A stretch of 34,732 bases of DNA from a virus: positions 1-34,732 of the IMG/VR virus record IMGVR_UViG_3300049489_000634, one strand, 5' to 3'. Both the position numbers and the translations under genes were made by a program. The notes beneath the pieces were generated by a model. That model ran no database searches, had not been told where the DNA came from, and saw only the letters and a list, made by a program, of their open reading frames with translations. Shown one piece after another: positions 3,308 to 7,778 of this stretch; position 1 is the first letter of the stretch; each line of letters begins with the position of its first letter.

Positions 3308-3625
3308 ATGGCTGGCGTTAAAGAAGCACGAATAAGAAATCCTGAGTTAATTAAATTTGTAAGAAATCAGCCGTGTTTAATTTGTGGAAAAACCGCACCA
3401 AACGACGCACATCACGTCATAAGCAGGGGCGCAGGGGGCGAAGATGAGCCAGAAAATCTAATGCCGCTTTGCTCTGGGGTTGGAGGCCACCATTCCATGT
3501 GGCACCAAAGGGGAATCCTCACAATGTCAAAAACATTTCCTCAGGTTTCTAATTGGCTAAAGCTCGCAGGATTTGAGATTTGCGAAACGAAGGGCACATG
3601 GAAAAAACCGATCGATTTAAATTAA
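3308..3625 (+). CDS. HNH family nuclease
   Basis: A 105-residue compact HNH protein. Zinc-type pair C23/C26 is followed by D33-A-H-H36, then R40-G-A-G-G, N50, C55, the H61/H62 pair and H66. This is the order expected for a beta-beta-alpha-metal nuclease with the second histidine and asparagine in place. ATG at 3308 follows a short AT-rich spacer. Phage HNH proteins of this size assist packaging or recombination; here it lies in the replication block, several genes upstream of the terminase. All recognisable catalytic positions are present, so it should be active. Its exact role is not determined. Confidence 0.8.
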   Translation: MAGVKEARIRNPELIKFVRNQPCLICGKTAPNDAHHVISRGAGGEDEPENLMPLCSGVGGHHSMWHQRGILTMSKTFPQVSNWLKLAGFEICETKGTWKKPIDLN

Positions 3626-4258: not shown

Positions 4259-5239
4259 GTGTCAAAAGACAGACAACACGAATTCATCTCAGAACTAAAG
4301 AGAGTTGCGCTAGAACTTGGTAGAACACCAACTCGAGACGAATTTCATGAGCTGTCAAAACTTCCACGCAGAGAACAAGATAGATTATTTGGTGGATTCA
4401 CCTTTATGGTCCACGCAGCAGGGCTTGAAGTAAATCGAGAGTCGTCGTCAAAGATTAGACGCGAGCAAATAAAAAACAGCTTTGTTAGAAATCTTGCAGA
4501 CGATTTAAAAAAAGGAATGCCGCTCCCGAGAAAGTTAAATATCCAAGATGATTTTTGTATAGTTGTTTTAGGGGATACTCACTTTCCGTGGGTTAATCAT
4601 GATGCACTTATGTGGGCATATGCAATGATTGAGAAACTAAAACCGGATGTTGTTATACAAGCGGGGGATCTCATGGACAGCTTTAGCTGGTCAAAGTTTC
4701 CTAAAACAAAGTGTATATACAACCCACAAGAGGAATTAAATGCAGCGTTCACTGGCGCCACTGAGATGTGGAAATCTATCAAAAGAATTGTTCCAGCGGC
4801 GAGGTGTATTCAGATTGCTGGTAACCACGACCCGTCAAGCCGCGTTATGAGACAGGTCATGTCTCAGGCGCCAGAGCTAGAGCCGTTTATAGACATAAAA
4901 AAATGGTTTACGTTTGACGGCGTTGAATCAGTCTATGATCCAAGAGAAGTTTTGCTTATAAACGGGATTGAAATAACACACGGACACAGGCTCAAACACG
5001 GCGACTACATGAAAGAAGTTCAACGGTGTGTTGTATTGGGACACCTCCACGTCGGAAATGTAGCCTATAAAAAATTAATTAGCGGAAGGGTAATATGGGA
5101 ACTAAATGCCGGATACCTCGGCGATCCAAAGAGCATCCCACTTTCTTATACTCCAAAAAACATCGATCACTGGATTAATGGAATTGGCGTAATAGATTCA
5201 TGCGGTCCCAGATTTATAGCCGCGCCATCTTCCGCTTAG
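4259..5239 (+). CDS. Calcineurin-like metallophosphoesterase with N-terminal homing-associated repeat
   Basis: A 326-residue protein starting with GTG at 4259. All metal-binding blocks of the calcineurin-like family are present: G105-D-T-H108, G136-D-L-M-D, G188-N-H-D191, H241-G-H243 and G261-H-L-H264. It should therefore be an active two-metal phosphodiesterase or nuclease. Residues about 12-56 (LGRTPTRDEF, then LFGGFTFMVHAAGL) match the short helical repeat attached to many homing HNH nucleases, probably for DNA binding. The C-terminal 13 residues are encoded opposite the end of the minus-strand HNH gene. Such enzymes in phages may process DNA ends or signalling nucleotides; the substrate here is unknown. 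Confidence 0.8.
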   Translation: MSKDRQHEFISELKRVALELGRTPTRDEFHELSKLPRREQDRLFGGFTFMVHAAGLEVNRESSSKIRREQIKNSFVRNLADDLKKGMPLPRKLNIQDDFCIVVLGDTHFPWVNHDALMWAYAMIEKLKPDVVIQAGDLMDSFSWSKFPKTKCIYNPQEELNAAFTGATEMWKSIKRIVPAARCIQIAGNHDPSSRVMRQVMSQAPELEPFIDIKKWFTFDGVESVYDPREVLLINGIEITHGHRLKHGDYMKEVQRCVVLGHLHVGNVAYKKLISGRVIWELNAGYLGDPKSIPLSYTPKNIDHWINGIGVIDSCGPRFIAAPSSA

Positions 5240-5740
5240 AGCAGAATTTTCTGAATGCGTTAGCCACCGCATGTTGGAAATAACATATCCAATCTCAGGG
5301 TTTATTCTGTCCACGGTTGGGCACAATCTGCGATCGTATTGAGATTTGGTCCAATTAAAAAAAAGAAAATGAAACTCTTTATGGTTGTCTGCCCATGCAT
5401 AGAAGCTTTCTTTGCTTAGAATTTCTTTACCAAAATACAAATGCTTTTTACGTTTCTGTATCCCAAGAACCCTTGAAAGCATGTTTCTGTATTTTCTAAC
5501 TAGAAAACCCTTTTTTGTTTTTTCGTATTCTTTTACCTTGCCCCGGCCCAACCTTCGGATTCTAGCGTTTACACAATTTCTGTGGCACTGAAAACATTTA
5601 GCGCCATGTAGTCTTTTCCCGTCTGATCCGACGTACCACCATTCTTTTCTAGACTTTCTAATTTCGGTTTTAATTTTTATGTATTGTTTTTTGCAAACAG
5701 AACACGAGACAATCATTAGGCATGCATAGTGATTTACCAT
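5198..5740 (-). CDS. HNH homing-type endonuclease, lone minus-strand gene
   Basis: A 180-residue protein read against all its neighbours. The N-terminus carries C13-x-x-C16 and a second CxxC pair (AKCFQCHRNC), likely one zinc finger. The C-terminus has the phage homing-nuclease signature CPTVDRINPEIGY...NMRWLTHSEN (D-R-I, G-Y, N-x-R-W, S-E-N). ATG at 5740 lies behind AT-rich DNA with TATACA but no Shine-Dalgarno; a second ATG is 24 bases downstream. It converges on and overlaps the phosphoesterase gene by 42 bases. Such genes are mobile and usually selfish. It is probably a later insertion, judged by orientation and overlap. Confidence 0.75.
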   Translation of the reverse strand: MVNHYACLMIVSCSVCKKQYIKIKTEIRKSRKEWWYVGSDGKRLHGAKCFQCHRNCVNARIRRLGRGKVKEYEKTKKGFLVRKYRNMLSRVLGIQKRKKHLYFGKEILSKESFYAWADNHKEFHFLFFNWTKSQYDRRLCPTVDRINPEIGYVISNMRWLTHSENSALSGRWRGYKSGTA

Positions 5741-5795: not shown

Positions 5796-6044
5796 ATGTC
5801 ATCAATGCGTTGTGGGTGCAGAGCAAGTGAAGCGATTGAATGTGGATCAAAAAAATATCGAATCCCATTGGAGGCGATGACAAGCGTTGATGAATGCGCT
5901 TGCGTCTGTCACTATGCGGAAATTGACGAAACATTATCGAAACGGGATAGAAAAACCAGTAAAGTGCCTGTGCAAGGAAATGGACCCACTCAGCTGCGTC
6001 GCGGATCGCTACGGAGTTCAAAAAGAGTGGATTCTAAAAAATAA
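5796..6044 (+). CDS. Cys-rich small protein A (CxC...CxCxCH module)
   Basis: An 82-residue protein from the ATG at 5796; a TTG at 5769 would add nine residues (LKKRNSKI). The core is C-x-C-x7-C-x17-C-x-C-x-C-H, reading MRCGCRASEAIEC then ECACVCHYAE. The last 40 residues are basic, overlap the next gene in another frame and may have no function of their own. The same cysteine layout returns in the following gene, so the two are related copies. The spacing suits metal binding. Family unknown. Confidence 0.55.
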   Translation: MSSMRCGCRASEAIECGSKKYRIPLEAMTSVDECACVCHYAEIDETLSKRDRKTSKVPVQGNGPTQLRRGSLRSSKRVDSKK

Positions 6045-6111
6045 GGATTTCACCCCATGTCCGTGCAGATGCCACGAGCCACCCGATGAACCACCAAACG
6101 ATGAAATTTGA
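5914..6111 (+). CDS. Cys-rich small protein B, related to protein A
   Basis: A 65-residue protein in the +1 frame relative to protein A. ATG at 5914 gives MRKLTKHYRNGIEKPVKC; in-frame starts also exist at 5887 and 5890. The core is C-x-C-x7-C-x20-C-x-C-x-C-H (CLCKEMDPLSC then CPCRCHEPP), matching protein A position for position except for three extra residues in the middle. No clear ribosome binding site is seen, so it may be translated by coupling or by frameshifting out of protein A. It overlaps the RusA start by 11 bases. Function unknown. Confidence 0.55.
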   Translation: MRKLTKHYRNGIEKPVKCLCKEMDPLSCVADRYGVQKEWILKNKDFTPCPCRCHEPPDEPPNDEI

Positions 6112-6468
6112 ATTCCCATTTCGCGCAGTGCCAAGAAAATCAACAAAATTTAGGAAAAACGGGTTTTCGTACAAAGACCCAGAATCGGCCAAATTCGAAC
6201 GATCAGTAAAAGAATACGCAAAACTACAAGCAGGCGGTTTAACGCCCCGCTCTGGTCAATTGCGCGCGTATTACGGGCTTTTTTTTGCCAGACCAAGGTC
6301 TACAAAGTTCAAATACCCACCAAGACCCGACGCGGACAACTGCGTCAAGGCGATTGCTGATGCGCTGCAGGGTGTTGTGTTTTTGACTCACAAATTTCTG
6401 AGTTCACGGTGAAAAAAGAATGGGCTGATCATGACCACTTCTTTGTTAAAATCGAAGAGCTTGTGTAA
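6101..6468 (+). pseudogene. rusA: RusA-like Holliday junction resolvase, frameshifted
   Basis: From ATG at 6101 the first 94 residues match RusA: a substrate-binding N-terminus (MKFEFPFRAVPRKSTKF) and the catalytic R75-P-D77-A-D79-N...K83...D87-A-L-Q-G-V-V-F. RusA proteins then continue with a DDxQ block holding the last catalytic aspartate. Here the frame instead reads LTHKFLSSR and stops at 6412. The expected continuation, D-S-Q-I-S-E-F-T-V-K-K-E-W, is present in the +2 frame from 6385 to a TAA at 6466. The break is at a run of five T (6380-6384). A small deletion, a sequencing error or recoding could explain it. Without repair the product should be inactive. Confidence 0.75.
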
Positions 6469-6541
6469 TTTAATCGGCAAAATTAGTTTGGCTTGGACGC
6501 AAGAAAGACTTTTGTGAGTTCGAATCTCACCACGAGCGCCA
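6459..6541 (+). tRNA. tRNA gene with aberrant anticodon arm (possibly Pro-TGG)
   Basis: Acceptor strands GCTTGTG (6459-6465) and CACGAGC (6531-6537) pair over seven positions with one G-T. The T arm is perfect: GTGAG TTCGAAT CTCAC (6514-6530). The D arm ATTT/AAAT encloses A14 and GG at the expected places. Discriminator G and an encoded CCA end the gene. The anticodon region is odd: the best arm is TTTGG-CTTGGAC-GCAAG (6487-6503), with a G-G closing mismatch and anticodon TGG. There are two extra bases before it and a 10-base variable region. A degenerate or unusual tRNA, or a type II tRNA of other identity, is possible. It overlaps the rusA remnant. Confidence 0.6.
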
Positions 6542-6586: not shown

Positions 6587-7102
6587 ATGAAGATTCACTG
6601 CTTGTTTGACCGAATGGTTCAGACAAAAGAATTAAAGCCACATCCTAAAAATCGGAATAACCACTCCGACGAGCAAATCTCGCGCCTTGCAAAAATATTA
6701 GAATATCAAGGCTGGCGATACCCAATTAAGGTTTCAAATCAATCTGGGTTTATTACATCCGGCCACGGGCGCTTAGCTGCTGCTATTAAAAACGGATGGA
6801 CAGAAGTCCCGGTCAGTTTCCAAGATTATGAATCAGACGATCAAGAATACGCAGATTTAACTGCCGACAACTCAATCGCATCTTGGGCAGAACTAGATTT
6901 GTCTGGAATAAACTCAGATATAGGTGAGCTTGGGCCAGACTTCGATATTGATTTACTTGGGATTAAATCATTCTCATTAGATTTTAAGCCAACAGAAATA
7001 GAACAAGAAGATGCATCTAGTTTGAGTAAGCTAGCAGATAAAATAGTCCAATGTCCAAACTGTGGCGAACAATTCAATGCAAACGAAACTAAAACTAGTT
7101 GA
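6587..7102 (+). CDS. ParB/sulfiredoxin-fold protein with C-terminal half zinc finger
   Basis: A 171-residue protein behind an AAGGG ribosome binding site. Residues about 13-95 are a ParB N-terminal-like domain: ELKPHPKNRNNH, I31-LAKILEYQGWRYPI, then F55-ITSG59-H60-G61-R62 in the place of the ParB GERR box, and YADLTADNS. The C-terminus has a single C156-P-N-C159 pair and stops. In phages this domain is often fused to an adenine methyltransferase or sits beside DNA modification enzymes. Here no methylase follows; instead the Mom-like gene overlaps the last 26 bases. It may help the modification enzyme bind DNA or a cofactor. The domain call is firm; the function is inferred. Confidence 0.75.
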   Translation: MKIHCLFDRMVQTKELKPHPKNRNNHSDEQISRLAKILEYQGWRYPIKVSNQSGFITSGHGRLAAAIKNGWTEVPVSFQDYESDDQEYADLTADNSIASWAELDLSGINSDIGELGPDFDIDLLGIKSFSLDFKPTEIEQEDASSLSKLADKIVQCPNCGEQFNANETKTS

Positions 7103-7778
7103 TCACAGCACCACTAAGCTGGCTTGTATTAATTGGCACTATTCTAAATCTGTTCCAGTTCCACCAACCATATCTTATGGAGTAACAGAAGGTGAAAAAT
7201 TTATTGGCGTTATTATATTCAGCAGAGGCGCATCGAGCAATCTTTTAAAACCTTATGGCTTAAAGCAAACAGAGGGTTGTGAGCTTACTCGTGTTGCTTT
7301 AAAAAACCACAAACAAAAGACATCTAAGTTTTTAGCGATAGCAATAAAACTACTTAAGAAAAAAGAACCACAATTAAAGATTATAGTTAGTTTCGCTGAT
7401 CCAAATGAGGGACATCACGGTGGGATATATCAGGCTACGAATTGGGTTTACACTGGAAAAACCAATAAAACCAAAAAATACGTCGATAAGTCAGGCAGAG
7501 TGTGGCATTCGAGACAAGTTAGCGAGAAAGGGTTTAAGGTTCAACAAGGCAACATTAGAAAAACGATAAAGCCAAGTCAATGCACAATTATCGAACAGGA
7601 AGGCAAACACCGCTATCTAATGCCACTAGACGACGATACTCGAAAAAAGATTTTACATTTATCTAAACCTTATCCAAAGCGCGCATCAAGCAAAGGTAAC
7701 GTTGCGTCTGGTTTCCAACCAGAAGAGGGCGGTGCAATTCCGACCGATGCGCTCCAAGAAAAGACTAAAAATGGCTAG
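7077..7778 (+). CDS. Mom-like adenine modification protein (GNAT fold)
   Basis: A 233-residue protein from ATG 7077 (MQTKLKLVD). The Mom family pattern is visible: N19-W20-H21-Y22-S23-K-S-V-P near the start, a beta strand FIGVIIFSRGAS, E69-L-T-R72-V-A-L, a long helix (TSKFLAIAIKLLKKKEP), then IIVSFAD108 and the GGIYQATNWVYTG strand-helix. Mu Mom converts adenine to N6-methylcarbamoyladenine, which protects DNA from restriction. The conserved HY and SFAD blocks suggest activity. The tail (residues about 205-233) is Gly/Pro-rich and disordered. The gene is coupled to the ParB-like gene and overlaps the small terminase by eight bases. Residue-level chemistry is not proven from sequence. Confidence 0.75.
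   Translation: MQTKLKLVDHSTTKLACINWHYSKSVPVPPTISYGVTEGEKFIGVIIFSRGASSNLLKPYGLKQTEGCELTRVALKNHKQKTSKFLAIAIKLLKKKEPQLKIIVSFADPNEGHHGGIYQATNWVYTGKTNKTKKYVDKSGRVWHSRQVSEKGFKVQQGNIRKTIKPSQCTIIEQEGKHRYLMPLDDDTRKKILHLSKPYPKRASSKGNVASGFQPEEGGAIPTDALQEKTKNG

Follow-up and report, generated by a model that had tools for sequence, protein, structure and literature searches.

We analysed a viral contig of 34,732 nt (IMG/VR record IMGVR_UViG_3300049489_000634; hereafter the window) and focused on two short cysteine-rich open reading frames, ORF A and ORF B, which directly precede the gene rusA (Table 1). ORF A carries the motif C-x-C-x7-C-x17-C-x-C-x-C-H, and ORF B, in the +1 frame relative to ORF A, carries C-x-C-x7-C-x20-C-x-C-x-C-H. 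The DNA pattern of each motif occurs once in the window and in none of 100 dinucleotide-preserving shuffles. This confirms the pair of Cys-rich frames, one frame apart, that an earlier interpretation made from the letters of this DNA (the sequence-only reading) had described.

Besides its first start, ORF A has a second possible start at ATG 5805, and no GGAGG-type ribosome binding site (RBS) was found upstream of its own start. The possible starts of ORF B are TTG 5887, ATG 5890 and ATG 5914. The second gene had been described as lacking a clear RBS, which holds for ATG 5914, but a possible, distant GGAGG is located upstream of the other two starts, at a distance of 12 nt from TTG 5887 and 15 nt from ATG 5890. 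A codon-usage model gave no positive coding signal for ORF A or ORF B and did not separate their frames.

Table 1. Features of the ORF A and ORF B locus and its surroundings in the window.
Feature	Position	Strand	Basis or remark
HNH/DUF968 gene	3308-3625		
Calcineurin-like metallophosphoesterase	4259-5239		N-terminal homing-endonuclease-associated repeat (PF18780)
HNH-type endonuclease	5198-5740	opposite to A and B	
ORF A	5796-6044	+	translation begins MSSMRCGCRASEAIECGSKKYRIPLEAMTSVDECACVCHYAEIDE...
Domain A, Cys6His with short acidic stretch	5796-5957	+	motif match, external-family HMM, AF2
Motif of ORF A	5811-5912		
GGAGG	5870-5874	+	possible but distant RBS for B
ORF B, stop to stop	5881-6111	+	translation CLCKEMDPLSCVADRYGVQKEWILKNKDFTPCPCRCHEPPDEPPNDEI
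Domain B core	5944-6108		C-terminus of ORF B acidic
A5 run between domains A and B	5951-5955	+	sequence read directly
C-terminal tail of ORF A in its own frame	5958-6044	+	basic; overlaps B; possibly untranslated
Motif of ORF B	5965-6075		
rusA (Holliday-junction resolvase family)	6101-6472	+	PF05866; probable start ATG 6101
T5 run	6380		near the break in the rusA frame
tRNA-Pro (tgg)	6459-6541		ARAGORN; 83 nt
ParB-N-like and Mom-family genes	6587-7778		overlapping; Mom family PF25680, E = 7.6e-43

The genes in the window are ordered HNH/DUF968, metallophosphoesterase, HNH-type endonuclease, A, B, rusA, a tRNA call, ParB-like, Mom-family and terminase. Judged by this gene content, A and B lie within a phage early region. 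The gene rusA follows B directly, and its probable start lies inside the last codons of B. We found that the rusA frame is broken near the T5 run. PF05866 matched rusA as read with 42.1 bits (profile positions 1-98 of 124), and matched the gene read through with an X at the break with 55.2 bits over the full profile (1-124 of 124). The break reflects either local indel errors in the contig or a broken gene. The 3' end of rusA, when read through, overlaps with the predicted tRNA-Pro, whose length is unusual for a tRNA-Pro. Before the terminase, a weak ParB-N-like gene overlaps a Mom-family gene, and these two are possibly a DNA hypermodification pair.

A phage family with six cysteines and one histidine

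Used as single-sequence queries, A and B found no relative in IMG/VR or in 50,697 phage records, after which IMG/VR was scanned with the DNA pattern alone. The raw matches were mostly low-complexity, wrong-frame translations, accompanied by clean small motif-bearing ORFs. Two sharper scans, which additionally fixed an Asp/Glu in the loop, gave 14 and 8 contigs. Against the 14 viral contigs found with the first sharper pattern, 257 Gb of prokaryote genomes contained just one contig with this pattern, and it came from a Myxococcota MAG. This distribution suggests a phage-specific family that rarely occurs outside viral contigs.

A profile search, as the sequence-only reading had proposed, recovered the family. 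We built an HMM from 22 outside members only, leaving out the window copies, and searched it against 22,378 six-frame ORFs. It matched B with E = 4.6e-9 and A with E = 1.9e-6. Because the scans had selected the Cys/His positions, likeness beyond the scan-selected residues was tested with shuffles in which Cys and His were fixed and all other positions were shuffled. The HMM score was reached by 1/5000 shuffles for B and by 76/5000 for A, and the excess similarity of A beyond Cys/His is modest. The invariance of Cys and His (and, in two scans, of the loop Asp/Glu) is partly circular, since the scan patterns chose these residues. The first scan pattern left loop position 4 free, yet Asp occupies it in 9/9 family ORFs from that scan, and the Arg at +4 after the third Cys, which was in no scan pattern, is conserved in at least 90%. 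On these sequence measures, A and B both belong to one real, widespread phage family. Many homologues keep the cysteine spacing, the loss of which in all homologues would have spoken against the sequence-only reading.

Taking a score above the curated cut-off or an E-value under 0.001 as a match, we found none for A or B at a meaningful E-value in Pfam, PHROGs or NCBIfam. Pfam and PHROGs likewise matched none of six outside candidates, of which the profile later confirmed five as members. The family is thus absent from, and has no name in, the libraries searched, and the earlier statement that no family was recognised stands for the members scanned in Pfam, PHROGs and NCBIfam and for the PDB. 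A tblastn search of named phages with four outside members as queries was without a significant match, and literature searches found nothing relevant to this Cys-rich family. The searches revealed no close homologue of A or B; the terminase relatives, read for a syntenic copy, contained no family member, and the neighbouring metallophosphoesterase, used as an anchor for a locus search, yielded no relative.

All outside members seen have one domain each, and no other tandem pair was found among the family members. One contig (L097) carries two separate copies, at 5491-5694 and 7304-7528, which are 1.8 kb apart and near RecT and an exonuclease. A scan for the double motif revealed no fused two-domain homologue; its four contigs were three of low-complexity junk and one (L056) without a motif-bearing ORF. 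Of the single, double and fused versions envisaged earlier for other phages, we thus found singles and one contig with two separate copies, but no fused version. The evidence for a tandem arrangement therefore comes from the window only. Duplication had been judged more likely than chance; the relatedness is supported by the independent HMM, which matches both copies, but duplication itself is only possible, as A and B share only 17% identity. It is also possible that A and B are two family members that were acquired independently.

One gene or two overlapping genes

We considered how the two frames might be used. One tentative reading, which falls somewhat short of even odds, is that A and B are two overlapping genes, each encoding a single-domain protein, with B starting inside A at TTG 5887 or ATG 5890 behind the GGAGG. 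This agrees with the single-domain state of all other members, with the two separate copies carried by the same phage in L097, and with the GGAGG upstream of the possible starts of B. However, the RBS spacing would be long, the tail of A after the domain is unlike the family tails, and the overlap of 130-157 nt would be long for a phage. Because the stop of A lies this far past the possible starts of B, the stop/start coupling that had been suggested for the pair is unlikely.

About as likely is that the locus encodes one two-domain protein, split by a one-base indel (a sequencing or assembly error, or a recent mutation), probably in the A5 run. One base fewer in this run would join the domains as ...YAEIDETLSKRDRK-PVKCLCKEMDPLSC... 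(...SKRDRK-PVKCLC...). Past about 5954, the ORF A tail as read is basic and unlike the family tails, and a similar break occurs at a T5 run in the following gene, rusA. The missing RBS for ATG 5914 and the distance of the GGAGG from the other B starts also favour a single protein. Taken together, the basic A tail, the A5 junction and the rusA break cast doubt on the two-frame layout as the native arrangement and make a split two-domain protein about as likely as two genes. On the other side, the frames of those structural genes for which relatives exist are intact. Errors are therefore uncommon in a contig in which 235 homopolymer runs reach a length of at least five. In addition, the outside members seen are single-domain throughout, and the double-motif scan yielded no fused homologue.

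Programmed +1 frameshifting from A into B is improbable. The frame of B and the A-rich junction would suit it, but we recognised no known +1 signal, no relative shows it, and slippage at a canonical -1 heptamer would lead ribosomes into the wrong frame. Of the earlier suggestion that frameshifting may join the two genes, a frame break remains plausible; it need not be programmed, as a +1 shift is needed and rusA also has an indel-type break. Least probable of all is that A and B are chance Cys-rich translations and not genes, a candidate largely refuted by the family search: most raw pattern matches were of that kind and the codon model gave no positive signal, but the motif shuffles, the HMM E-values, the conserved D, R and Y residues, the acidic tails and the overlap of the end of B with the probable rusA start all argue against it.

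Domain anatomy and a putative role in DNA metabolism

The family consensus is CxCx3-[DE]-[AP]-x2-C-x3-R-[YH]-x(7-20)-CxCxCH, followed by an acidic tail, and both A and B have the Cys/His spacing C-x-C-x7-C-x(about 11-25)-C-x-C-x-C-H. B has the loop Asp and the Arg-Tyr after the third Cys (D, RY), and A has conservative changes at these positions (E, KY). The tails after CxCxCH have a mean charge of -5.0 and are negative in 21 of the 22 outside members. The B tail has a charge of -5; the A tail starts acidic, but over the ORF as read it sums to +7.

The AF2 models of both domains contain a helix spanning residues 15-23, with a pLDDT of 64.6 for A and 79.5 for B (about 90 over the B core). In the models, a short helical hairpin carries the predicted ligands at its two ends; therefore, a metal probably ties these ends together. 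From the ligand spacing, the domains probably bind metal, most likely Zn. Neither a PDB sequence search nor Foldseek found a solved structure resembling the domain model (Z stayed below 2 for every chain), and a PDB match to a bungarotoxin chain (E = 0.005) was put down to Cys composition. The middle of B, DPLSCVADRYGVQKEWILKN, reads similarly to LysM and helix-turn-helix (HTH) sequences, with weak Foldseek rows for LysM. The LysM reading was rejected because Foldseek E-values exceeded 2, Z remained below 2 and the Pfam LysM model (PF01476) matched nothing in the window; the HTH reading found no support. At this position, several other members are too short for a second helix.

We also examined the genes beside the family members. 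These include RecT, exonucleases, Erf, DnaB, NinB, SNF2-type helicases and DNA methyltransferases, as well as integrases, a polynucleotide kinase and a DnaC-like loader. The neighbours of control ORFs on unrelated contigs were mostly structural and lysis genes, a rough comparison with a small and uneven control. The family neighbourhood, mostly recombination, helicase and methyltransferase genes, points to a DNA-metabolism module.

We propose, with a probability of roughly 0.55, that A and B are divergent copies of an unnamed phage domain that serves as a metal-stabilised adaptor in an early DNA-metabolism operon. The domain is small and combines its six Cys and single His with a conserved Asp/Glu and, downstream of the third Cys, an Arg/Lys-Tyr/His pair; in most cases an acidic tail follows. 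The hairpin ends would probably be held together by one or two metal ions, with Zn the likeliest candidate, in place of a hydrophobic core. The protein would most likely act as a small adaptor or binding module, in which the domain or the acidic tail would contact a replication or recombination partner. The two copies directly before rusA would be one two-domain protein, with a real or sequencing-derived one-base indel, or two overlapping genes. The sequence analysis establishes membership in the family, the bias of the gene neighbourhood and the break in the rusA frame, while metal binding, the adaptor role and a fusion of A and B are inferred from it.

A more specific version, in which this phage-specific Cys6His family provides a tandem two-domain protein whose acidic tails recruit replication or recombination enzymes in the manner of SSB, is unlikely. 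Many members end in an acidic run, and one (L061) ends in DDDDDDEIPFL, which recalls the acidic tips of SSB (DDDIPF type). However, only 9/22 members end in a hydrophobic residue, and the family is far too small for an OB-fold SSB.

Other known systems share parts of this architecture. Small phage zinc-finger and zinc-ribbon proteins are likewise short, rich in Cys and His and located in early DNA-metabolism regions, but zinc ribbons have CxxC...CxxC, whereas the A/B family has CxC...C...CxCxCH. The Zn2Cys6 (Gal4-type) binuclear cluster holds six Cys in a compact helical hairpin. Its likeness to the A/B family is a lead only; it has CxxCx6C where the A/B family has CxC and CxCxCH and an extra His, and we found no sequence or fold match between them.

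No part of a phage genome is annotated as poorly as the genes for small early proteins, which often serve in host takeover or replication. This analysis provides a usable signature for an unnamed family that occurs almost exclusively on viral contigs and in the company of recombination genes. The tandem layout is of lesser weight because it is seen in one contig only, with a likely frame problem. In two members (L128:108-326 and L137:6964-7197), the family domain is preceded by an additional N-terminal C-x4-C...H-x-G-x-C-like motif, perhaps a second metal site.
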